Positions 13,277 to 51,870 of a DNA stretch of 59,181 bases are shown piece by piece. The notes under the pieces were generated by a model. It saw only the letters and a list, made by a program, of their open reading frames with translations. It was not told the origin of the DNA and did no database searches. Origin of the DNA: a virus; the IMG/VR virus record IMGVR_UViG_3300027906_000015, positions 1 to 59,181 of that record; one strand, 5' to 3'. Within the stretch, counting starts at the first letter, position 1. Each line of letters starts with the position of its first letter. Made by a program: the position numbers and the translations under genes.

Positions 13277-14873
13277 GAATACTGAATTTGGTTACTTAGG
13301 CAATCCATCAGTTAAAAGAGATGGTGTTGTTAGTGATTTTACCAAAGAAGAAGTTATAGAATATCAAAAATGTATGAAGGATCCTTCGTACTTTGCTCGT
13401 ACCTATGTAAAAATTATATCTCTAGACGAGGGATTAGTTCCATTTAATTTATATGATTACCAAGAAAAAATGTTTAATCATTTTGGTGATAATAGATTTA
13501 GTATTGTATTAGCATGTAGACAAAGTGGTAAATCTATATCATCAGTGGTATATCTATTGTGGTATGCTTGTTTCCACCCAGAAAAAACTATAGCTATACT
13601 CGCGAACAAGGGCGCGGTCGCACGTGAGATGCTCGCGCGTATCACGCTCGCGCTTGAGAACTTACCATTCTTTTTACAACCTGGATGTAAAGCTTTAAAT
13701 AAAGGATCTTTAGAATTCAGTAATAATAGTAAGATAATAGCAGCTGCAACATCTGGTTCATCTATTCGTGGTTTATCAATTAATTTATTATTCCTAGATG
13801 AGTTTGCATTTGTAGAAAATGATGCTCAATTCTATACATCAACATATCCAGTAGTATCAGCAGGTAAAGATACACAAATAATAGTTACATCTACTGCAAA
13901 CGGTGTTGGTAATGTTTATCATAAACTGTGGGAAGGTGCTACAAATGGAACTAATGAATTTAAACCATTTAGAGTAGATTGGTGGGATGTACCAGGAAGA
14001 GATGATAAGTGGAAACAAGAAACAATTGCTAATACATCTGAATTACAATTCGAACAAGAATTTGGTAATACATTTCATGGTAAAGGTAATACATTAATAT
14101 CAGCTAATCATTTATTAGCACAAAAAGCTGTAGATCCTATTCAATATCAAGAAAATATATGGTTATATAAAGAACCTATAGAAGGACATGATTATATAAT
14201 AACAGTTGATGTAGCCAAGGGTAGAGGACAAGATTATAGTACATTTACTGTAATAGATGTAAGTACTAATCCATTCGATCAAGTAGTAGTATTCAGAGAT
14301 AATAATATATCACCTATGCTATTACCTGATATAATATACAAATACGCTAAAACATATAATGAAGCTTATATCATTGTAGAGTCGAATGATGCTGGTATTG
14401 TTGTATGTAATGGGTTATATTATGATTTAGAATATGAAAATATGTTTGTAGAATCCGCTATTAAAGCTAATGCTATTGGTGTTATGATGACCAGAAGGGT
14501 AAAAAGAATAGGATGTTCTACAATAAAAGATCTAATAGAACAAAAAAAATTAATGATATATGATGCAAATACCATAATAGAAATGGCTACATTTGTTGCA
14601 GTGGGTAAATCATATATGGCTAAAGCACCAAATCACGATGATTTAATGATGAATTTAGTCTTATTTGCATGGTTTACTACAACAGATATATTCCAATCTA
14701 TATCAGATATTGATATGAAAAATATGTTATATAATGAACAATTAAAAGCAATACAGGATGATATGTTACCATTTGGTCTTGTAAATGATGGACAAAGTAC
14801 AGATAAAGGCGAAGGAGATGGGGAAGGTAATGTGTGGTTTGAAGAAGATACCAAAACCACAGGATTATTTTAA
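13257..14873 (+). CDS. 17: Terminase large subunit gp17 (packaging ATPase and nuclease)
   Basis: This 538-residue DNA packaging motor has an N-terminal ATPase with Walker A CRQSGKS at 87-93 and Walker B LLFLDE at 177-182. The C-terminal RNase H-fold nuclease carries acidic residues D318 (ITVDVAKG), E375 (IIVESND) and an Asp in NHDDLMM at about 461. These match T4 gp17 in order and spacing, with no intron or frameshift. A second GC-rich island (13599-13661) lies just after Walker A. It starts inside the end of gp16, so the two are translationally coupled. Confidence 0.95.
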   Translation: MSNQRIKNTEFGYLGNPSVKRDGVVSDFTKEEVIEYQKCMKDPSYFARTYVKIISLDEGLVPFNLYDYQEKMFNHFGDNRFSIVLACRQSGKSISSVVYLLWYACFHPEKTIAILANKGAVAREMLARITLALENLPFFLQPGCKALNKGSLEFSNNSKIIAAATSGSSIRGLSINLLFLDEFAFVENDAQFYTSTYPVVSAGKDTQIIVTSTANGVGNVYHKLWEGATNGTNEFKPFRVDWWDVPGRDDKWKQETIANTSELQFEQEFGNTFHGKGNTLISANHLLAQKAVDPIQYQENIWLYKEPIEGHDYIITVDVAKGRGQDYSTFTVIDVSTNPFDQVVVFRDNNISPMLLPDIIYKYAKTYNEAYIIVESNDAGIVVCNGLYYDLEYENMFVESAIKANAIGVMMTRRVKRIGCSTIKDLIEQKKLMIYDANTIIEMATFVAVGKSYMAKAPNHDDLMMNLVLFAWFTTTDIFQSISDIDMKNMLYNEQLKAIQDDMLPFGLVNDGQSTDKGEGDGEGNVWFEEDTKTTGLF

Positions 14874-37724: not shown

Positions 37725-40289
37725 ATGAATTTTTATACGAACGTATCTCGTTATGGCAATATGTTACTCTATCGTGGAGTAGAAAATGGCAAACGAGTCC
37801 AAAAGAAAATCAAATACAAACCTACACTCTACGTAGGAACAAACAAAGCAACCAAATGGAAATCCTTTACTGGGGTTCCTGTTGCTCCTGTCCAATTCGA
37901 ATCTATGAGAGATGCTAAGAATTGGATTAAAGAAAACGAACATGTAGCAGGTAGGCATATCTTCGGTAATACCAGATATCAATCCTGCTTAATTAATGAT
38001 CTATTCCCAGGTGAAATAGAATTCGATAGAAACCTAATCAATGTTACTTCAATTGATATTGAGGTTCAATCTGATGATGGATTTCCTGAGCCTGGTCCAG
38101 CATTAAAAACTGTAACAGCTATTTGTCTTAAAAATAATATTGATAACACTTATTATGTTTGGGGCTTAGGTGATTATAATGTAGATGCTTCTTATATGAA
38201 AACCAATCGTGTGGTCTATAAGAAATGTGTAGATGAAAAAGAATTACTAATTGAATTTATTAATCACTGGGCTACACCTTCACATACACCTGATATTGTT
38301 ACTGGTTGGAACTCTAAGTTCTTTGATATACCTTATCTGGTTAATAGAATTAGAAGAGTATTTGGTCCAGATCTTGGCGAAGAGAATATTAAAAAGCTTT
38401 CCCCTTGGGGCATGGTCGAACGAAGAGAAGCTAGAATAGCATACAAATCGATGAATCGAGATGAAACATATGAATTCCAGGGAATATCCCAAATGGATTA
38501 TATGGAAGTTTTTAAGAAGTTTGGCTATGCCTATGGGCAACAAGAATCATATTCTCTTAATAATATTGCTCACGTAGTACTTGGTGAAACTAAACTATCC
38601 TATGAAGAACATGGTACATTGTATAACTTATACCAAGCTGATCACCAAAAGTTTATTGATTATAATATTAAAGATGTAGAATTAGTAGATCGATTCGAAG
38701 ATAAAATGGGATTGATTACTCTTGCTCTTACTATAGCATATCGTGGTGGTGTTAACTATAATGATGTGTTTGGTACTACTGCAATTTGGGATACAATCAT
38801 ACATCGTGATTTATATGCTGATAATATTATCATGCCATTCCCGAAAGATCCCCAAGAGAAAACAACTTATGCTGGTGGATATGTTAAAGATCCTCAGATA
38901 GGTTTACATAATCATGTAGTTAGCTTTGACCTTAATTCACTGTATCCTTCCCTAATTATGCAATACAATATGTCACCTGAAACTATAGCTAACGGAGAAA
39001 TGGTTAATGTTGATGTAAATTCTATGCTTGAAGGTAAGCAAAAAGTATACAAAGATGGTTATGGATTATGTGCTAATGGCCAATACTTCCATACTGAAAA
39101 ACAAGGTGTACTTCCTAAGATCGTAGAAGAAATGTACAGTGAACGGGTAGAAGTTAAAAAGCAAATGTTGGATTCACAAAAAGAATTACAAAAAGCTGAT
39201 CCGGAAGATAAGCAAGAAATCTATAGAATACAAAGAGATATATCTCATGCAGAAAATAGACAAATGGCAATTAAGATTCTTCTTAATAGTTTATATGGTG
39301 CTCTAGGTAATCGTTATTTTAGATTCTTTGATCAAAGAATTGCTGAAGGTATTACTTTATCTGGCCAATTGATTATCCGTTGGGGTGAACAATCTATTAA
39401 TAGATACCTAAATAAGCTGCTTCAGACCAACAGAGATTACGTCTTAGCAATCGATACCGATTCCCTATATATTGGGTTAGGTCCATTGGTAGAACAGTTT
39501 AAACCAAGTAATCCAATTGACTTCTTAGATAATGTATGTAAAGAATTAGAAAAAGTATTCATTGATTGCTATGAAAACATCTATCAAAGATATGGTGGTA
39601 TTGAAAATACAATGGTTATGGGTAGAGAAGTTATTGCTGATAGAGGAATATACTTAGCTAAGAAAAGATATATTCTAAATGTAGTTGATAACGAAGGTGT
39701 TAGATTTAAAGTTCCAAAGATTAAAACAATTGGTGTTGAAGCTAACAAATCATCTACACCCGAAGCTTGCCGTAAAGCTTTAATAGAAATGTTTAAAGTT
39801 ATTATCAGTAAAGAAGAAATAGATGTACAAGAAGCTATAGCTCAATTCAAATCTCACTTCTTTACTTTACCCCCGCACGAGATAGCTTTTCCAAGAGGGG
39901 TAAATAATATAACAGGATTCGAAGATACGATCACTTATAAGAATCAAGCTGGTGAAACTATAACCAACAAAACTTATAAGAAAGGAACACCAATACATGT
40001 TCGTGGATCCTTACTTTATAATTGGCAAAGAGAGAAATTGAATTTGATGAAATATCCTAACCTTAGAAATGGCGATAAGATCAAATTTACATATCTTACA
40101 ACCCCAAATCCAATCAAAGAAAATGTTATTGCATTTCCAGACTATTTGCCGGAGGAATTCGGATTACATGATTATGTTGATTATGAGATGCAATTCCAAA
40201 AAACTTTCATCGATGCTATATCCCCTATCCTTAATGCAGTAGGTTGGCATCCTGAGAAGGTTTCTACGTTAGAGGATTTCTTTGGATAA
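37725..40289 (+). CDS. 43: Replicative DNA polymerase gp43 (family B)
   Basis: This 854-residue polymerase (T4 898) has a 3'-5' exonuclease with D111 and E113 (SIDIEV). Polymerase motifs are A with D402 (DLNSLYPS), B around 517-525 (KILLNSLYG) and C with D577 and D579 (IDTDSLY). The C-terminal end (STLEDFFG) is the usual clamp-binding peptide. No intein, intron or split is present, unlike some T4 relatives. An early promoter lies directly before the start codon. Confidence 0.96.
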   Translation: MNFYTNVSRYGNMLLYRGVENGKRVQKKIKYKPTLYVGTNKATKWKSFTGVPVAPVQFESMRDAKNWIKENEHVAGRHIFGNTRYQSCLINDLFPGEIEFDRNLINVTSIDIEVQSDDGFPEPGPALKTVTAICLKNNIDNTYYVWGLGDYNVDASYMKTNRVVYKKCVDEKELLIEFINHWATPSHTPDIVTGWNSKFFDIPYLVNRIRRVFGPDLGEENIKKLSPWGMVERREARIAYKSMNRDETYEFQGISQMDYMEVFKKFGYAYGQQESYSLNNIAHVVLGETKLSYEEHGTLYNLYQADHQKFIDYNIKDVELVDRFEDKMGLITLALTIAYRGGVNYNDVFGTTAIWDTIIHRDLYADNIIMPFPKDPQEKTTYAGGYVKDPQIGLHNHVVSFDLNSLYPSLIMQYNMSPETIANGEMVNVDVNSMLEGKQKVYKDGYGLCANGQYFHTEKQGVLPKIVEEMYSERVEVKKQMLDSQKELQKADPEDKQEIYRIQRDISHAENRQMAIKILLNSLYGALGNRYFRFFDQRIAEGITLSGQLIIRWGEQSINRYLNKLLQTNRDYVLAIDTDSLYIGLGPLVEQFKPSNPIDFLDNVCKELEKVFIDCYENIYQRYGGIENTMVMGREVIADRGIYLAKKRYILNVVDNEGVRFKVPKIKTIGVEANKSSTPEACRKALIEMFKVIISKEEIDVQEAIAQFKSHFFTLPPHEIAFPRGVNNITGFEDTITYKNQAGETITNKTYKKGTPIHVRGSLLYNWQREKLNLMKYPNLRNGDKIKFTYLTTPNPIKENVIAFPDYLPEEFGLHDYVDYEMQFQKTFIDAISPILNAVGWHPEKVSTLEDFFG

Positions 40290-43988: not shown

Positions 43989-44471
43989 ATGATTGAAAAA
44001 TTTGGAATAACTACAAAAGAAACCTTCGACGACAAAATATTAACCCAAGAAAGTTTACAGTGGATTGAAGAAGAATCCTCTCGAATAGCTTCAGGAGTTA
44101 TAGAAGGTAATGTAAGCCGGAATTCTTTAACTGGCAAATATAGAACGTATGAAGATATTAAATCAGATGCCAAAAATGGATTAGTAGCTGAAGCTTATCT
44201 TATACAAGAATATAACTATACAGATAATCCAAAAAGATTTCATGATATAATTACACCAGAAGGTATAGAAGTTGAAATCAAAACTTATAATGGGCATTCA
44301 ATTGCAACCCGATATAACCAAATTTTAAGACTGGAATCACGTAAAACAAAATACCAACATGTTCTTATGTTTAAAAGAACTGATGGGGTTTATACGTTTG
44401 ATTCTTATTGGAAACATAATAATGATACTAGATTGTATGAGGAAGTGAAATGGGGAAATTCAACACATTAA
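43989..44471 (+). CDS. PD-(D/E)XK-fold nuclease-like protein
   Basis: This 160-residue protein has E68 in GLVAEAYL, D86 in FHDIITPEG and E96-I-K98 in VEIKTY. This is the arrangement of restriction-endonuclease-fold enzymes. The C-terminal part (YQHVLMFKRTDGVYTFDSYW) looks like the closing strands. It overlaps the methyltransferase-like gene by 22 bases, which recalls a restriction-modification pair, although phage recombination or host-DNA-degrading nucleases are equally possible. Confidence 0.65.
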   Translation: MIEKFGITTKETFDDKILTQESLQWIEEESSRIASGVIEGNVSRNSLTGKYRTYEDIKSDAKNGLVAEAYLIQEYNYTDNPKRFHDIITPEGIEVEIKTYNGHSIATRYNQILRLESRKTKYQHVLMFKRTDGVYTFDSYWKHNNDTRLYEEVKWGNSTH

Positions 44472-45391
44472 AAAAGTTTAGCACATCAGATGTGCGAACT
44501 GCAATGATTTATTCAAGAGATGAGATACCTGAAGATTATCATGGTAAAGATGTTATTATAGGTGAATGGTTAGGAGAATTATTCCATACACTTACAGATC
44601 AATACTATACCCAAAGTATGAGATCTCAATACTATTATCCAGATGTAAAACCAGAAGGTGGATTCGATAAACACATTTGTCCAGGTCACTGGCAAGGTTA
44701 TAGATGGGCAGTTCAAAACTTTACTGATTACGGAGATTGGGTTTTAGATCCAACAGTTGGTACAGGAACAGCGGTTGTAGAATCTATTAACCACAACAGA
44801 AATGCTATAGGAATAGAATTAGAATTCTCAGAGATTACAAGAAGAACAATACAAACACAATATGATCGTGCTAATGAAGTTGGAAGTGTAGTTCCTTTAG
44901 GTAAGGGAACAATAATAGAAGGTGATGCTAGGGATCTAGATGATCATGTTGGTGATCAAATGTTTGATATGATTATCAATGGAACACCTTATCCAGTTCT
45001 TGGAGGAGGTCAATCAGATGCACCAGAAAGAGGATATACCTCTGCAGGAAGAGGAGCAACAATTCAATATCAAAAGGATAAAAACGTTGGAGTATTAAAA
45101 GGTCAAGTATACTGGGATACGATCTTAGCAATCTATTCAGCTGCTATAAATAAACTAAAGCCCGGTGGAAAATTTATTACTCTTATCAAAGATCCAACTC
45201 AAAACAAAGAACCATATCTTTTACATAAAATGGTAGCTGATATGCTCATGGAAAATCTTCCAGTAAAACCTTATGGAACATTTGTTCATAGACATTTACC
45301 ACAAACATTGTTTATGAATACATATCCAAAAAGATACCCCGAAGTGAACTTACCCCTATACCAAACTGGAACTGTACTAGAAAAAATATAG
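44450..45391 (+). CDS. DNA methyltransferase-like protein with unusual motif IV
   Basis: This 313-residue Rossmann methyltransferase has SAM-binding motif I DPTVGTGT at 100-107, with NRNAIGIELE following. The position of the catalytic (D/N/S)PP(Y/F) motif holds NGTPYP at 177-182. The LKPGGKFITLIKD strand is present. The substitution of the first proline in motif IV is unusual for active DNA amino-methyltransferases, so activity or target may differ. The start ATG follows GAGGAAG and lies inside the nuclease-like gene. It could modify phage DNA or act on the modified pyrimidine predicted from 45770. Confidence 0.65.
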   Translation: MGKFNTLKKFSTSDVRTAMIYSRDEIPEDYHGKDVIIGEWLGELFHTLTDQYYTQSMRSQYYYPDVKPEGGFDKHICPGHWQGYRWAVQNFTDYGDWVLDPTVGTGTAVVESINHNRNAIGIELEFSEITRRTIQTQYDRANEVGSVVPLGKGTIIEGDARDLDDHVGDQMFDMIINGTPYPVLGGGQSDAPERGYTSAGRGATIQYQKDKNVGVLKGQVYWDTILAIYSAAINKLKPGGKFITLIKDPTQNKEPYLLHKMVADMLMENLPVKPYGTFVHRHLPQTLFMNTYPKRYPEVNLPLYQTGTVLEKI

Positions 45392-45441: not shown

Positions 45442-45789
45442 ATGAAACCATTAAATATATTAAAAAATGCTGCTGACTTAATTGTCAGTAAAGGCAATGA
45501 TTACCAAAATCCTAAATCTAGGATTCGCCAAGCAGATTATTATCCAAACGGTGCTCAAACCATTTTAGATATAATGACCGGTAAAGTTAATCGTATGCAT
45601 TCTGTTTTAGATGCTATGCGAGATGATGAAAACTATGTAGAGAACTTTGAATCACTTCACGATTCAGCAGTAGATCTAATTAACTATGCAGCTTTCTTTG
45701 CTGCTTATCTTGATTATGATATTGATGGACAAGATCCTAGTCGAGATATATTCAACAGGATTAAAGATATTGAAAGCGAAAGATCTTAA
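45442..45789 (+). CDS. DUF1599/Nmad1-like protein (115 aa)
   Basis: This helical protein has a GNDYQNPKSRIRQADYYPNG block, a DIMTGKVNRMHSVLD helix and NFESLHDSAVDLINYAAFFA. This order resembles DUF1599, called nucleotide modification associated domain 1, and the wider all-alpha NTP pyrophosphatase folds. It lies directly before and partly overlaps the dCMP-hydroxymethylase-like gene, which fits a nucleotide-modification role. Family assignment is from pattern only. Confidence 0.55.
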   Translation: MKPLNILKNAADLIVSKGNDYQNPKSRIRQADYYPNGAQTILDIMTGKVNRMHSVLDAMRDDENYVENFESLHDSAVDLINYAAFFAAYLDYDIDGQDPSRDIFNRIKDIESERS

Positions 45790-46498
45790 AGAAGGGTTAT
45801 ATCGACTTCGTGAGAAATTACTTAACGAAGGATATATTATTGAAACAGAAAGATGGCAAGGTGGTACTGATCATCCTGCTTTCTTAGAAATACTACATGC
45901 TGATATGGTTTGTCCAATGTCAGATACAGCTGAAGAAGCAAATGATTTATTAGGAGCTGTTCAACCATGGGCAGATGAACACTTCGAAGAAAGAGTTGGT
46001 GGTATACCTTGTAACCCACCGCCAAGTCATGTACACTGGTTAAAAGATACAGATAAATATTTAATGGATGAAGCATTTTCTCATTCTTATCCAGAAAGAA
46101 TGTGGCAAGATACAGAACAAATGGGTGTTAGATTTAATATTGCTAATCTAAATACTGCAGTAGAATTACTTAAAAAAGAACCTACAACAAGACAATGTTA
46201 TATACCAATATGGTTTCCAGAAGATGGTACGGCCGCTCTCGCGGGCGAACGCGTCCCGTGCACGTTCGGGTGGCACTTTATGTTACGAGATAATAAATTA
46301 CATTGCGCGTACCACATGCGCTCGTGCGATGTTATGCGTCATTTACATAATGATTTATATTTTGCTAATAGATTATGTTTATGGTTAATAGAACAAACAG
46401 GATTAGATGCAGTACCTGGTACTATACACTTTAGTGCTAGTTCTTTACATTGCTTCGAAGTAGACAAATATTCTTTAAATCAAATAGTAAACGGATAA
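45770..46498 (+). CDS. 42: dCMP hydroxymethylase-like enzyme (thymidylate synthase family)
   Basis: This 242-residue protein starts at the TTG at 45770 (AGGA nearby), giving almost the length of T4 gp42 (246). The nucleophile is C164 (RVPCTFGW) and RSCD is at 184-187. The residue that is Asn in thymidylate synthase and selects dUMP is Asp here, D195 in HLHNDLYFA, aligned without gaps and as in T4 gp42 (RNDYAW). The late SASSLHCFEVDKY also matches gp42 better than ThyA. It should therefore act on dCMP, adding hydroxymethyl or methyl at C5 with folate. Two GC-rich islands (46230-46275, 46304-46329) cover the active-site codons. Confidence 0.75.
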   Translation: MKAKDLKEGLYRLREKLLNEGYIIETERWQGGTDHPAFLEILHADMVCPMSDTAEEANDLLGAVQPWADEHFEERVGGIPCNPPPSHVHWLKDTDKYLMDEAFSHSYPERMWQDTEQMGVRFNIANLNTAVELLKKEPTTRQCYIPIWFPEDGTAALAGERVPCTFGWHFMLRDNKLHCAYHMRSCDVMRHLHNDLYFANRLCLWLIEQTGLDAVPGTIHFSASSLHCFEVDKYSLNQIVNG

Positions 46499-47850
46499 TG
46501 TGCGGATTTATAATACACGAAAAAACAACTAAAGAAAACTCTTTACAAAAAATAGGACAAATGTCCTACAGAGGATTACCTGAATATGTAGGGTATCAAC
46601 ATTGGAAAGGTTATGATATGGCTCATACATCTTTACCAATGGTTGATCCAGATCCTAAGATTTCTATTCAACCTATACAAGATCATCCGTGGGAATCTCC
46701 TTCAATGTTCGTTGGAGAAATATTTAATTGGAGAGAGTTCGGTGATTTTGAAAATGATGCTTATATGTTACATCGGGTATTTAAAGAAAACCTAGCTGAA
46801 AATGGTAGTTTAAATATACCACACGTACATGATATCTGGCATTATTTTGATGGTTTCTGGTCTTTTATTACCTTTATTGAAGATCAACCTATTATATTTA
46901 CAGATTTCTTAGGAATTAAACCTGTTTATTATAGAGCAGATCAATTTGCAGCAGCATCAGAACCAAGGGTATTACTTTCATATGGAGAAGTTACACCAAA
47001 CTATTTACATCTTTCAAATGTAATGAAATGGGGTTATGATCCAACAGGTGGAACACCTTGGAATGAAATCAGGCAATTAAAAGCAGGACATTTTCTTTAT
47101 AAAGGTAAAGAAGTATGTTATTGGGATTGGAATAAAGTTCCTTTAATGAATCTCAGAGATGATTTAAGTCAGGCAGTTAATCTAAGATTAGGTGGATTTA
47201 GAGATGCTAGTATCTTATTAAGTGGTGGATTAGATTCATCTATCATATATGGATTAATAAAAGAACAAGGATTACATATAACCCCAATACATGTAAACAA
47301 TCATGAACATAATTATGCAGCTTTAGTTGCAGGTGATGATAAGTTAGTTGAAGTTAATTTAAATAATGTTGGTGATTATGAAGCAGTAGAAATACATCAA
47401 AGTCCTGTAGATTTAGGATCAGTTAAACCCCAAATAGCTATGGCTAGAGAATTAGATAATTTAAATTTTAGAAATGTTTTAACTGGTGATGGTGCTGATG
47501 AATTATTTGGTGGGTATAGTAGAGCAAAAGATTATGATAGCCAATTAAGTGATGTATTCTTAGAATTACCTTATTATCATTTACCTAAATTAGATAGAAC
47601 TATGATGGAACAAACAGTAGAATTACGTGCACCATTCTTAGCTCCATCAGTTATTTGCCACGCATTAAATACACCATATGCAGAAAGGAATGGTGAAAAG
47701 AAAGTATTAAAGAAAATATTTGCTGATCTAGTACCAGACGAAATTCTTGATAGAGAAAAGCATGCACTCAAAACAGACCAAATAAGGAAGGATCCTATGA
47801 AACAAAGACAAATCAATATGACAATTTGGAGAGATTTAAATGGGTTCTAA
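46498..47850 (+). CDS. asnB: Asparagine synthase-like glutamine amidotransferase
   Basis: The ATG at 46498 overlaps the previous stop and makes Cys2 the N-terminal nucleophile (MCGFIIHEK), as class II amidotransferases need. The product is 450 residues, shorter than bacterial AsnB. The PP-loop is SILLSGGLDSSIIYGL and the second synthetase motif TGDGADELFGGYSR. It could make asparagine, but its place between the dCMP-hydroxymethylase-like and dCMP deaminase genes also allows amidation of a modified pyrimidine or precursor. Both Gln and ATP sites look intact. Confidence 0.82.
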   Translation: MCGFIIHEKTTKENSLQKIGQMSYRGLPEYVGYQHWKGYDMAHTSLPMVDPDPKISIQPIQDHPWESPSMFVGEIFNWREFGDFENDAYMLHRVFKENLAENGSLNIPHVHDIWHYFDGFWSFITFIEDQPIIFTDFLGIKPVYYRADQFAAASEPRVLLSYGEVTPNYLHLSNVMKWGYDPTGGTPWNEIRQLKAGHFLYKGKEVCYWDWNKVPLMNLRDDLSQAVNLRLGGFRDASILLSGGLDSSIIYGLIKEQGLHITPIHVNNHEHNYAALVAGDDKLVEVNLNNVGDYEAVEIHQSPVDLGSVKPQIAMARELDNLNFRNVLTGDGADELFGGYSRAKDYDSQLSDVFLELPYYHLPKLDRTMMEQTVELRAPFLAPSVICHALNTPYAERNGEKKVLKKIFADLVPDEILDREKHALKTDQIRKDPMKQRQINMTIWRDLNGF

Positions 47851-48292
47851 TACGAAATACGATCACAGATATTTAGATTTAGCCAAGTTCTTTTCTACAT
47901 GGTCGAAAGACCCGAGCGCGCAGATAGGCGCGGTCGCGATAGGAGATAAAGGTCAAGTATTAGCCCAAGGGTATAATGGATTTCCTAGAAAGGTAGAAGA
48001 AACAGAATTAAGATTAAATGTAAGAGAAACAAAATACAAATATGTAGTTCATGCTGAAATGAATTGCATATACAATGCTTCATATAATGGAGCTAATTTA
48101 GATGGTAGCACGATGTACGTATACGGACTTCCCGTATGTCATGAGTGTGCAAAAGCCATTATTCAAGTTGGTATAAAAAGAGTAGTTATACCATTTGATC
48201 ATTTCACTAAGGTACCTGAGAGATGGATGGAATCTATCAAACTATCTCAAGGTATGTTTAATGAAGCTGGAGTCGAATATGATTCCATTTAG
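47840..48292 (+). CDS. cd: dCMP deaminase
   Basis: This 150-residue zinc deaminase has the HAE motif (VVHAEMNCIYNA) and the LPVCHECAKAII cysteine pair. It converts dCMP to dUMP, feeding dTTP synthesis and lowering dCTP. T4 carries the same enzyme alongside dCMP hydroxymethylase, and the two compete for dCMP. A GC-rich island (47911-47939) covers the conserved DPSAQIGAVAIGD region. It overlaps the amidotransferase by 11 bases. Confidence 0.92.
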   Translation: MGSNTKYDHRYLDLAKFFSTWSKDPSAQIGAVAIGDKGQVLAQGYNGFPRKVEETELRLNVRETKYKYVVHAEMNCIYNASYNGANLDGSTMYVYGLPVCHECAKAIIQVGIKRVVIPFDHFTKVPERWMESIKLSQGMFNEAGVEYDSI

Positions 48293-48361: not shown

Positions 48362-48877
48362 ATGTTAGGTGTAAATGAACAGTTTCCAGAGTTTGCTATG
48401 AATGTAGTTAAACCCTATGGAAACGAAATGACAAGTATAACTGAAGAAGATCTTGAAGGATCTTGGACAGTAATATACTTTTACCCAAAAGATTTTACAT
48501 TCATTTGTCCTACTGAGATAGCTGAATTCGATGGAATTCCAGCTGAAGAAGCCAGAGTTATTGGTATCTCAGGAGATAATGAATTCTGTAAAGTTGCTTG
48601 GAAAGAAACCAATTCAATGATTAGTGATATTAATCATGAGTTAGGTGCAGATTGTGGTTTAAATTTAACAAACGATTGTGGAATTGTAGAGCACGATGAA
48701 GGTGTAGCATTAAGAGCAACATTTATCTTAGATGAAGATAATGTAGTAAAATATGCTCAAGCTAATGCCTTAGATACAGGTAGAAATGCTAATGAAGTTT
48801 TAAGAACTTTAAGAGCACTCAAAGCTGGTGGGCTAACCGGATGTAGTTGGAACCCAGGGGAGGAGTTCGTTGCCTAG
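48362..48877 (+). CDS. Peroxiredoxin (AhpC/TSA family)
   Basis: This 171-residue 2-Cys peroxiredoxin has peroxidatic C49 in [13 protein letters not shown] and likely resolving C161 in [11 protein letters not shown]. It reduces peroxides at the expense of thioredoxin-like donors. Its place at the head of the bS21-uvsX operon, under an early promoter, suggests it protects the infected cell from oxidative damage, which is useful in sunlit seawater. It is an uncommon gene in T4-like phages and probably acquired from a bacterium. Confidence 0.88.
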
Positions 48878-49122: not shown

Positions 49123-50172
49123 ATGGGTGTAATGGATAAACTTAAAAAGAATTCAAAGATTAAAACAACAGATGTTTTAGCTGATTCTTTATTCTTTAAA
49201 GATGTGGATCAAATAACAACCTCAGTGCCTATGATAAACGTTGCTTTATCTGGTGATAAAGATGGCGGATTATCTGCAGGGTTAACTGTGTTAGCTGGTC
49301 CTTCAAAACATTTTAAAACATCATTTGCGTTATTAATCGCAGCTGATTATTTAAAAAAGTATGATGATGCTGTATTATTATTCTACGATTCAGAATTTGG
49401 TTCACCCCAAAGTTATTTTGAATCATTTGGAATTGATACTAATAGAGTATTACATACTCCTATCACTGATGTTGAACAACTTAAGTTTGATCTAGTTAAT
49501 CAACTAGAAGCATTAGAAAGGAAAGAAAAGGTAATTGTTATAATAGATTCTATCGGTAATTTAGCATCCAAAAAAGAATTGGAAGATGCTTTAAATGAAA
49601 AATCGGTAGCTGATATGTCAAGAGCCAAGGCGCTAAAAGGATTATTTAGAATGGTCACACCATATTTAACTATGAAAGATATTCCTCTTTTAGCTGTTAA
49701 TCATACCTATCAAGAGATGGGACTGTTTCCAAAAGCTATTGTGAGTGGAGGTACTGGTATCTACTACTCAGCTGATAATATATGGATTATTGGAAGACAA
49801 CAACAGAAGAAGGGAACAGAAGTTACAGGATATAATTTTGTTATCAATGTTGAAAAATCGAGATTTGTTCGAGAAAAGTCTAAGGTTCCTATTGGAGTTT
49901 CTTGGAATGGTGGTATTGAGCGTTACTCTGGTCTTCTGGACGTTGCTCTTGCTGGCGGCTATGTCGCTAAGCCTAACGTTGGTTGGTATTGCCGTGTTAA
50001 TAGAGAAACTGGAGAACTCATCGATCCTAAGTGCCGTGAAAAGGACACTCTCAACGAGGAGTTTTGGTCACCAATTTTTGAAGAGACAGACTTCAGTGAA
50101 TTCATTAAAGGTCACTACCAAATTGGACAAGTCCCCCTTCTAGATGTCGAACTAGATATAGAGGAAGAATAA
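49123..50172 (+). CDS. uvsX: UvsX recombinase (RecA-like)
   Basis: This 349-residue strand-exchange protein has Walker A GPSKHFKT at 59-66, Walker B in VIVIIDSIGNLAS, and the DNA-binding loop region around KAIVSGGTGIYYSADNIWII. It acts with UvsY (23156) in recombination-dependent replication and repair. The acidic C-terminus (VELDIEEE) is typical. An AGGAGG-type site at the end of bS21 provides its initiation signal. Confidence 0.95.
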   Translation: MGVMDKLKKNSKIKTTDVLADSLFFKDVDQITTSVPMINVALSGDKDGGLSAGLTVLAGPSKHFKTSFALLIAADYLKKYDDAVLLFYDSEFGSPQSYFESFGIDTNRVLHTPITDVEQLKFDLVNQLEALERKEKVIVIIDSIGNLASKKELEDALNEKSVADMSRAKALKGLFRMVTPYLTMKDIPLLAVNHTYQEMGLFPKAIVSGGTGIYYSADNIWIIGRQQQKKGTEVTGYNFVINVEKSRFVREKSKVPIGVSWNGGIERYSGLLDVALAGGYVAKPNVGWYCRVNRETGELIDPKCREKDTLNEEFWSPIFEETDFSEFIKGHYQIGQVPLLDVELDIEEE

Positions 50173-50528
50173 TGGAAATTACAATCGAAGACTATCAATT
50201 GGTAGAATCAAACGATGTAGAATTCTATGGTGTTAAACTAACTACAGGTAAGTGGAAAGATGTCATATACATATATGGTGAGGTAAAAATAAAAGAATCA
50301 CCAGAACTGGATATAGCAACACTAGCATTTACCTATAACATCACAGATTCGGCAAGTTTCGAAGAAGAAGATCTTATTAATGATATAGACTTTCGAAACT
50401 ATATAGGCGGAGTACTTCAGCACATAATGGAAGACTCTTTAGATTATGCAGAAGAAAATAATGTAGGAATAATTGGAATTGGACATAACGAATCAAATAC
50501 AGACACACATACTGAATCATCTGATTAA
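50172..50528 (+). CDS. Conserved phage protein between uvsX and gp41 (118 aa)
   Basis: A beta-rich N-terminal half (MEITIEDYQLVESNDVEFYG, then VIYIYGEVKIKES and LAFTYNIT) precedes an acidic helical segment and a Ser/Thr/Asp-rich tail. Marine T4-like phages commonly have a gene of this size in this slot, but its function is unknown. It overlaps uvsX by one base and gp41 by 56 bases, so it is tied to replication genes. Confidence 0.65.
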   Translation: MEITIEDYQLVESNDVEFYGVKLTTGKWKDVIYIYGEVKIKESPELDIATLAFTYNITDSASFEEEDLINDIDFRNYIGGVLQHIMEDSLDYAEENNVGIIGIGHNESNTDTHTESSD

Positions 50529-51870
50529 TGATGAGGATTACTGCAGAAGAGTAATACCTTTTCTTAAGAAAGATTATTTCGAAGGAACACATAAAGTTGT
50601 GTTTGACCTTATTGTTAGTTTTGTAGCTAAACATAATAAGATTCCTTCAGGTAAAATATTAGAATTAGAACTTAAGAAAGTTAGTGCTAGTGATGATGTA
50701 TTAACTCAATCTAATAATCTTATAGATGAAATAAAAGTTAAATCTGATATAGAGATAGATTACTTAGTTGATGAATCGGAAAAGTGGTGTAGAGATAGAG
50801 CAATCTATAATGCCATAATGGAATCGATTCAGATCATTGATGGAAAAGGAAAAGATAAAGGTGAAGGAGCAATTCCAGAAATACTATCGAATGCTTTGGG
50901 TGTTAATTTTGATCCAAATATTGGTCACGATTATATCGATAACTCTTCGGACAGATTCGATTTCTATAACACAACCGAAACAAGAATCCCGTGGGATTTA
51001 GATTACTTTAATAAAATAACGAAAGGTGGTTTACCGAATAAAACCTTGAACATCGCCATGGCAGGTACCGGTGTAGGTAAATCACTTTTCATGTGCCATT
51101 GTGCAGCAGCTAATTTAGAGATAGGTAAAAACGTTCTTTATATTACTATGGAAATGGCAGAAGAAAGGATTGCAGAAAGAATCGATGCAAACCTTATGGA
51201 TTACCCAATCCAACAATTAAATACATTACCTAAAAATGTATTCGATTCTAAGATACAAAACATTGCGAAAGCTTCTATAGGTAAACTTATAGTGAAAGAA
51301 TATCCAACAGGAGCAGCGCATACAGGTCATTTTAGAGCTTTATTAAATGAGCTCAAATTGAAAAAGAATTTCATGCCAGATATCATTTATATTGATTATC
51401 TGAATATTTGTGCTTCTAGTCGCGTCCGTGGGCTCGGTGGAAGTATAAATACTTACTCATATGTTAAATCTATTGCGGAAGAGTTAAGAGGTTTAGCAGT
51501 TGAGTTTAATGTCCCAATCGTGAGTGCAACGCAAACGACTAGATCTGGTTATAGTAATACTGATGTAGGATTAGAGGACACTTCGGAATCATTTGGTTTG
51601 CCAGCGACGGCCGACCTCATGTTCGCTTTGATTAGTACAGAGGAACTTGAGGATTTAGGTCAGATACTAGTAAAACAATTGAAAAATCGTTATAACGATC
51701 CAACTAAATACAAGCGTTTTGTAGTTGGTATAGATCGTTCCCGCATGAAGTTATACGATGTAGAGGAGTCAGCCCAAACTGATATTATATCAGATCTTGG
51801 TCCTGATAAACCAATAAATAAATTCGGGGAAGGCGAAGTAAAAGATCCTTACTCTGAATTTAAAATATAA
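50473..51870 (+). CDS. 41: Replicative DNA helicase gp41 (DnaB family)
   Basis: This hexameric 5'-3' helicase of about 465 residues has Walker A AGTGVGKS at 197-204, Walker B in DIIYIDYLNIC, and the conserved NVLYITMEMAEERIAERIDA and PATADLMFALI segments, which match T4 gp41. No ATG is available near the conserved N-terminus (HILNHLINDEDYCRR), so the start is a TTG at 50473 or 50479 inside the previous gene. The T4 partner primase gp61 is not in this window. Confidence 0.93.
   Translation: MELDITNQIQTHILNHLINDEDYCRRVIPFLKKDYFEGTHKVVFDLIVSFVAKHNKIPSGKILELELKKVSASDDVLTQSNNLIDEIKVKSDIEIDYLVDESEKWCRDRAIYNAIMESIQIIDGKGKDKGEGAIPEILSNALGVNFDPNIGHDYIDNSSDRFDFYNTTETRIPWDLDYFNKITKGGLPNKTLNIAMAGTGVGKSLFMCHCAAANLEIGKNVLYITMEMAEERIAERIDANLMDYPIQQLNTLPKNVFDSKIQNIAKASIGKLIVKEYPTGAAHTGHFRALLNELKLKKNFMPDIIYIDYLNICASSRVRGLGGSINTYSYVKSIAEELRGLAVEFNVPIVSATQTTRSGYSNTDVGLEDTSESFGLPATADLMFALISTEELEDLGQILVKQLKNRYNDPTKYKRFVVGIDRSRMKLYDVEESAQTDIISDLGPDKPINKFGEGEVKDPYSEFKI

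Follow-up and report, generated by a model that had tools for sequence, protein, structure and literature searches.

The window (the whole stretch of DNA analysed, 59,181 nucleotides of an IMG/VR virus record) is a 59 kb fragment, recognisable as part of a T4-like phage from its terminase, portal, sheath, clamp, clamp loader, polymerase, UvsX and gp41-type helicase genes. The annotated match with the best coverage of the window is Phage C48C1, assigned to the Kyanoviridae. The locus of interest is bounded on the left by a DNA polymerase gene of the T4 gp43 type (37725..40289, + strand; phrog_262) and on the right by uvsX (49123..50172, +; phrog_97 and T4 gene order), with a gp41-type helicase gene at 50473..51870 (+; phrog_19). 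The gene order of T4 in this region is 43-42-(bgt)-uvsX-40-41. An operon containing a thymidylate synthase (TS) homologue, here called TS-D, is placed between the polymerase and uvsX in the window, and the TS-D gene therefore occupies the T4 gene 42 slot. The same slot in Phage C48C1 instead carries genes for a DNA methyltransferase, a primase, a nucleotide-sugar epimerase and a UDP-glucose dehydrogenase, so its content varies among relatives. The last two genes (L001, 17979-19879) give the impression of a slot in which modification or sugar genes are exchanged.

The conserved module around TS-D consists of methylase-like, Nmad1-like, TS-D, AsnB-like and dCMP deaminase genes; the AsnB-like, Nmad1-like and methylase-like genes were absent from the initial annotation of this DNA. 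TS-D (45770..46498, +) has the TS fold and carries Asp where E. coli ThyA (EcThyA) has Asn177; from PF00303, phrog_160, an AF2 model and its residues it is predicted to be a dCMP C5-modifying enzyme. The methylase-like gene (44450..45391, +) encodes a divergent amino-methyltransferase-like protein (PF01555, 4.6e-8) with the motif DPTVGTGT and, in the alignment, an altered motif IV, TPYP. Motif I is intact in this protein and motif IV reads TPYP or NPYP; the gene is tied to TS-D in several backgrounds and is also found directly 5' of TS in a non-T4 contig. The protein could act on cytosine N4.

The product of the Nmad1-like gene (45442..45789, +) is a small DUF1599-like protein that may be a nucleotide pyrophosphatase. 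The window member has DUF1599 as its best-scoring family (E 0.021), and all 7 members match it (best E 6.8e-4); against PF07659 the window member scores 15.6 bits, where the gathering score is 25. Homologues with 53% identity are present in Serratia phages Muldoon, PS2 and SP1 and in Cronobacter phage VP8. In Muldoon the gene is directly 5' of a gp42-type TS, after which come a hypothetical protein, glucosyltransferases and uvsX; the layout is that of the window, except that glucosyltransferases take the place of AsnB. Among the genes of the window that were scanned there was no glycosyltransferase. Homologues of T4 gp1 and gp56 were not found in four relatives, a negative that carries no weight as the search was run without a positive control. 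The dCMP deaminase gene (47840..48292, +) is supported by PF00383 (1.5e-18) and phrog_174 (7e-40). An AhpC/TSA peroxiredoxin gene (48362-48877) is just 3' of the operon, and an AhpC/TSA gene is present in only some of the relatives.

TS-D and its substrate

The TS-D frame is open from 45770 to 46498 and encodes 242 aa from a putative TTG start. It matches PF00303 (Thymidylat_synt) over its C-terminal half with E 1.6e-8 and 34.5 bits, where the cut-off is 24.3, and phrog_160 'thymidylate synthase' over residues 57-239 with E 7e-33. The profile score above the cut-off and an invariant catalytic Cys164 place it in the thymidylate synthase superfamily, and by its sequence it is a divergent member of phrog_160. 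The AF2 model (pLDDT 85, pTM 0.86) is closest to MilA among solved structures (Z 20.5), then to HY126 AfhB with dCMP (Z 20.1); ThyA structures score about 18-19, and Z differences below 1 are treated as ties. The gene is found in dozens of syntenic contigs of uncultured viruses and is under purifying selection (Ks 0.23 and Ka 0.012 against L003; Ks 0.79 and Ka 0.096 against L004).

The active-site codons at 46221-46330 have a GC3 of 0.64 within an otherwise AT-rich gene (GC3 0.14). This rise is weaker in close relatives and fades in distant ones. An overlapping element hidden within the GC-rich patch was considered and rejected, there being no extra synonymous conservation. Further short GC-rich islands are present at 47911-47970, in the dCMP deaminase gene, and at 13591-13670, in the terminase gene, with similar strings GGCGCGGTCGC, in a genome of 34% GC.

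Residues were assigned from an alignment of E. coli ThyA, the ThyA of phage contig G006, T4 gp42, the Muldoon TS, the RB69 protein and relatives. The TS-D block RVPC164TFGWHFMLRDNKLHCAYHMRSC186D187VMRHLHND195 aligns with E. coli ThyA. The codon of Cys164, the predicted nucleophile (EcThyA C146, T4 gp42 C148), is at 46259..46261 (+), and both Cys164 and Tyr107, the equivalent of T4 gp42 Tyr96, are invariant among the aligned homologues. It had been proposed that Asp195 (codon 46352..46354, +; T4 gp42 D179) stands at the dUMP-selecting Asn of TS, and this is borne out: it aligns to Asn177 of E. coli, and Asp rather than the Asn of a dUMP-specific ThyA is found in 35/35 aligned homologues and 78/78 distinct sequences, an invariance that argues against chance. 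The likeness of the neighbouring residues to T4 gp42 was likewise confirmed, the gp42 block DFMCTNTVQYLIRDKKINAVVNMRSNDVVFGFRND sharing 'CT', 'MRS.DV' and 'ND' with TS-D.

Other positions also depart from ThyA. At the EcThyA His147 position there is Thr in the window and Thr (67) or Ser (11) among the 78 distinct homologues; at the Gln165 position there is Met in the window, with Met (70) or Ile (8) among the same homologues. The second phosphate-binding Arg position is Gln142 in TS-D. Retained residues of EcThyA are Arg at 126, Cys at 146, Ser at 167 and Asp at 169, the last of which contacts the pterin in EcThyA. The C-terminal part of ThyA after His207/Tyr209, which has a role in methyl formation, is absent, as TS-D stops about 15 residues past the His227 equivalent.

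A phage TS with Asp at position 177 is already known to be tied to cytosine modification, from T4 gp42 and from MetaGPA, where positions 177 and 147 best separate the TS of modified-cytosine contigs from those of unmodified contigs (PMC8670742). The sugar is addressed by the MilA study, in which Ser and Arg at two ribose-contacting positions accompany deoxyribonucleotides and a preference for dCMP (PMC5175136). MilA shares the Asp with TS-D (Asp186 equivalent), but has Ala176 and Lys133, the marks of a CMP hydroxymethylase that contacts ribose, whereas TS-D has Ser185 and Arg141, the type seen in enzymes that use deoxynucleotides.

Several relatives of the window have a separate route to dTMP. 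ThyX lies nearby in three related contigs that carry the TS-D/AsnB pair (G002, G003 and G004), and a ThyX homologue was seen in 39 fetched loci, not all of them on contigs distinct from these three. A second, canonical TS is found in two relatives that are more distant and have no AsnB; it is a full ThyA with Asn177 in G006 and is truncated at the contig end in G005. TS-D is therefore not the sole dTMP route in these relatives. ThyX was not found in the window, a 59-kb fragment. Pelagimyophage group C has been described with two thymidylate synthases and a dCMP deaminase, the latter read as feeding both (PMC7029224).

Taken with the gene-42 slot and the separate dTMP synthases, Asp195, Thr/Ser at 147, Met/Ile at 165 and Ser185/Arg141 make dCMP very likely to be the substrate of TS-D. 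It is highly improbable that TS-D works on dUMP like any thymidylate synthase in spite of its Asp, with AsnB making asparagine for the infected cell. Relatives in cultured phages are annotated as thymidylate synthase and the adjacent dCMP deaminase would feed dUMP; however, positions 147, 165 and 177 jointly differ from ThyA, and ThyX or a canonical ThyA is present separately in several relatives.

The AsnB-like gene and its linkage to TS-D

The AsnB-like gene (46498..47850, +; PF00733, 1e-30) begins with an ATG that overlaps the TS-D stop by 1 nt, and encodes class II amidotransferase-like and ATP-pyrophosphatase domains. The order nmad1-TS-asnB-dcd-uvsX is found in most close relatives, by tblastn over the fetched contigs. 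In nearly all cases the AsnB start and the TS stop overlap, by 1 or 16 nt, or the start comes at most a few nt after the stop. Among the 71 TS loci that run on for 1.5 kb or more downstream, 56 have AsnB no more than 120 nt away, and in one more it is 3.5 kb off. Looked at from the other gene, TS is directly upstream in 51 of 61 newly named AsnB-profile loci, which is all 51 of those with upstream DNA; the other 10 have AsnB beginning within 128 nt of the contig end, leaving no room for TS to be seen. Since the loci are related and some contigs are common to both sets, these counts are not independent.

The linkage extends to non-T4 phages and to different DNA polymerases. One independent background (L065) has a phrog_1252 polymerase and the order methylase-TS-AsnB-deaminase. 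Another (L072) has a phrog_17 polymerase, a thymidylate-kinase-like gene, AsnB and then a hydrolase of phrog_18404, to which the window Nmad1-like gene also belongs. At L054 (8717-10856) AsnB is absent and TS-D is followed by a nucleoside-kinase-like gene, a dCMP deaminase and a C5-cytosine methylase (PF00145).

The AF2 model of the AsnB-like protein (pLDDT 83, pTM 0.87) matches 1ct9 with Z 34.6 and TsnB9 with Z 32.5. As in AsnB and its paralogues, which include beta-lactam synthetase and the hydroxyamidotransferase TsnB9, there is a two-domain fold with Cys1, Asp98, SGGLDS and Lys449. The SGGLDS loop and Lys449 of the ATP-pyrophosphatase site are present in 15/15 sequences (one with Ile for Leu), and GxGxDE is kept. 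The glutamine pocket differs from that of the AsnB family: while Cys1 and Asp98 remain, Arg49 is found in 1/15, its position being mostly Ser or Ala, and Asn74 in 0/15, with Val in 13/15. The protein thus appears to have a working synthetase half and a changed glutaminase half, and its use of glutamine is doubtful. It is also unlike the family in being a phage-specific protein of about 450 aa that is linked to TS-D. That it is a plain asparagine-making auxiliary gene is disfavoured by the altered pocket and by its strict linkage to TS-D rather than to amino-acid genes.

A cellular origin for the gene was considered and set aside, as one scan of genome contigs gave remote relatives only (21-41%, short or full length). 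Close homologues in annotated phage records were not found at E 1e-5, with weak ones appearing only at E up to 10. Nothing relevant linking AsnB to phage base modification was found in the literature searched, whose coverage excluded subscription papers, and the TS-AsnB pair, being absent from that literature, looks undescribed. A parallel is found in the MetaGPA 5-hydroxymethylcytosine carbamoyltransferase systems, which like the TS-D operon combine a TS with Asp177, a pyrophosphohydrolase and a dCMP deaminase with a tailoring enzyme; the latter is a carbamoyltransferase there and AsnB-like here, and AsnB-type terms were not found in the text of that report (PMC8670742).

The reaction at C5 and a proposed pathway

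TS-D and T4 gp42 have about 21% identity by profile alignment. They share the TS fold, the catalytic Cys, the Tyr, the Asp179 equivalent, the Thr after the Cys and the Met before the Arg, and both are without a long C-terminal part and are found between the polymerase and uvsX. They differ at the second phosphate Arg, which is Gln142 in TS-D, and in that AsnB follows TS-D instead of a glucosyltransferase. They differ also at Asp145, which gp42 requires for hydroxymethylation, where it activates the attacking water (PMC6400193). This position is an invariant Arg161 in TS-D, which should therefore not be classed with the T4-type enzymes, even if it may well work in a similar way. Glu60 is described as conserved across TS, CH and dCH enzymes (PMC6400193), and the catalytic Glu58/60 position aligns with Val64 of TS-D by both MAFFT and HHalign; Glu70 or the invariant Glu74, in the next helix, may act as its substitute. 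The earlier reading of this locus as the source of a C5-modified dCMP is thus upheld as regards a dCMP-type enzyme, from the active site, the gene-42 slot and the dTMP synthases of relatives, but with Asp145 replaced and Val64 aligned at the Glu60 position, a function like that of T4 gp42 is less certain.

The replacement of the water-activating Asp145 would also suit a dCMP methylase, making 5-methyl-dCMP as in phage Xp12, with 5-methylcytosine in the DNA and an unrelated role for AsnB. The Asn-to-Asp change alone converts ThyA into a dCMP methylase, according to the literature as quoted in PMC8670742. Such an enzyme is nevertheless unlikely here, TS-D being without the long C-terminal part of ThyA, and, if a bare methyl group were the end product, it would be difficult to see why an AsnB-like ligase is so strictly linked.

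The RB69 gp42-like protein and HY126 AfhB also have the TS fold with the dCMP-type Asp and Thr, and the RB69 protein has been reported to make 5-hydroxy-dCMP, for Mosigvirus (PMC13390438). A 5-hydroxy-dCMP synthase of this type, flavin-linked and using no one-carbon unit, would leave a C5 oxygen that is then decorated. It would suit the position of AfhB as one of the two closest folds to the TS-D model and the want of a placeable equivalent of the folate-activating Glu of T4, given Val64 at the aligned position. However, the RB69 protein has Asn at the folate-contacting EcThyA D169 position, where TS-D keeps Asp (Asp187, invariant in 78/78 distinct homologues), which counts toward the use of folate by TS-D; Asn169 as a marker of 5-hydroxy-dCMP synthases is our reading of one sequence, that of RB69. 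In addition, the RB69 gene is beside sugar-nucleotide genes, of which none is recognised in the window operon. This alternative is as improbable as methylation.

Hydroxymethylation of dCMP as in T4 is our best guess from the sequences, placed ahead of methylation and hydroxylation, which rank about equally. The explanation that is probably correct is one in which TS-D makes 5-hydroxymethyl-dCMP, the AsnB-like ligase elaborates it, and a hypermodified cytosine is present in the DNA. TS-D would bind dCMP and add a one-carbon group at C5, most likely giving 5-hydroxymethyl-dCMP by a T4 gp42-type reaction. Cys164 would attack C6, Asp195 would hold and protonate N3, and water would trap the C5 methylene. 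Once phosphorylated, the product would serve in replication. The Nmad1-like protein, acting as a pyrophosphatase, would together with the dCMP deaminase hold down the level of ordinary dCTP and provide dCMP and dUMP. The co-translated AsnB-like ligase would spend ATP in elaborating the C5 group or in making a compound that is joined to it. Its tight coupling to TS-D suggests that its target is hydroxymethyl-cytosine as made by TS-D, or a group attached to that product; this is the weakest step of the pathway. The resulting hypermodified cytosine would resist host nucleases.

More tentatively, and at somewhat less than even odds, TS-D and the AsnB-like protein may form an undescribed pathway, in which AsnB, its glutaminase pocket remodelled, creates a bond of amide or other acyl type, either on the C5 substituent itself or for it. 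The outcome would be a new DNA base, widespread in marine T4-like phages and present also in unrelated phages. The AsnB partner points beyond the known glycosyl and carbamoyl decorations.

Cytosine modification had been thought unusual for a marine T4-like phage. This fits the phages of a 2010 survey, in which gene 42 is listed for T-even phages, JS98-type phages, RB69, CC31 and Acinetobacter and Aeromonas phages (PMC2993671), but not the dozens of syntenic uncultured contigs that carry TS-D. If the proposed pathway is correct, a modified base takes the place of cytosine in a large group of uncultured marine T4-like phages. This would bear on how marine phages escape nucleases and on the under-sampling of phage DNA by methods that dislike modified bases, and some pelagimyophage 'second thymidylate synthases' may be cytosine-modifying enzymes.

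Full-length relatives of TS-D with 33-42% identity are found among the phrog_160 proteins of Mycobacterium phage Muddy, Gordonia phages and Serratia phage Serbin. Among the relatives checked, the Muddy and Serbin TS have the Asp, the Thr, Arg161 and Gln142 as in TS-D. Their neighbours are thymidylate kinase, dUTPase and polymerase I, with no AsnB annotated, unlike the window. Because of this Asp, some 'thymidylate synthase' annotations in phrog_160 may need a second look. With a dCMP-type Asp in the Muddy and Serbin enzymes (L146, 5968-6741; L147, 5980-6852), these phages possibly contain modified cytosine.
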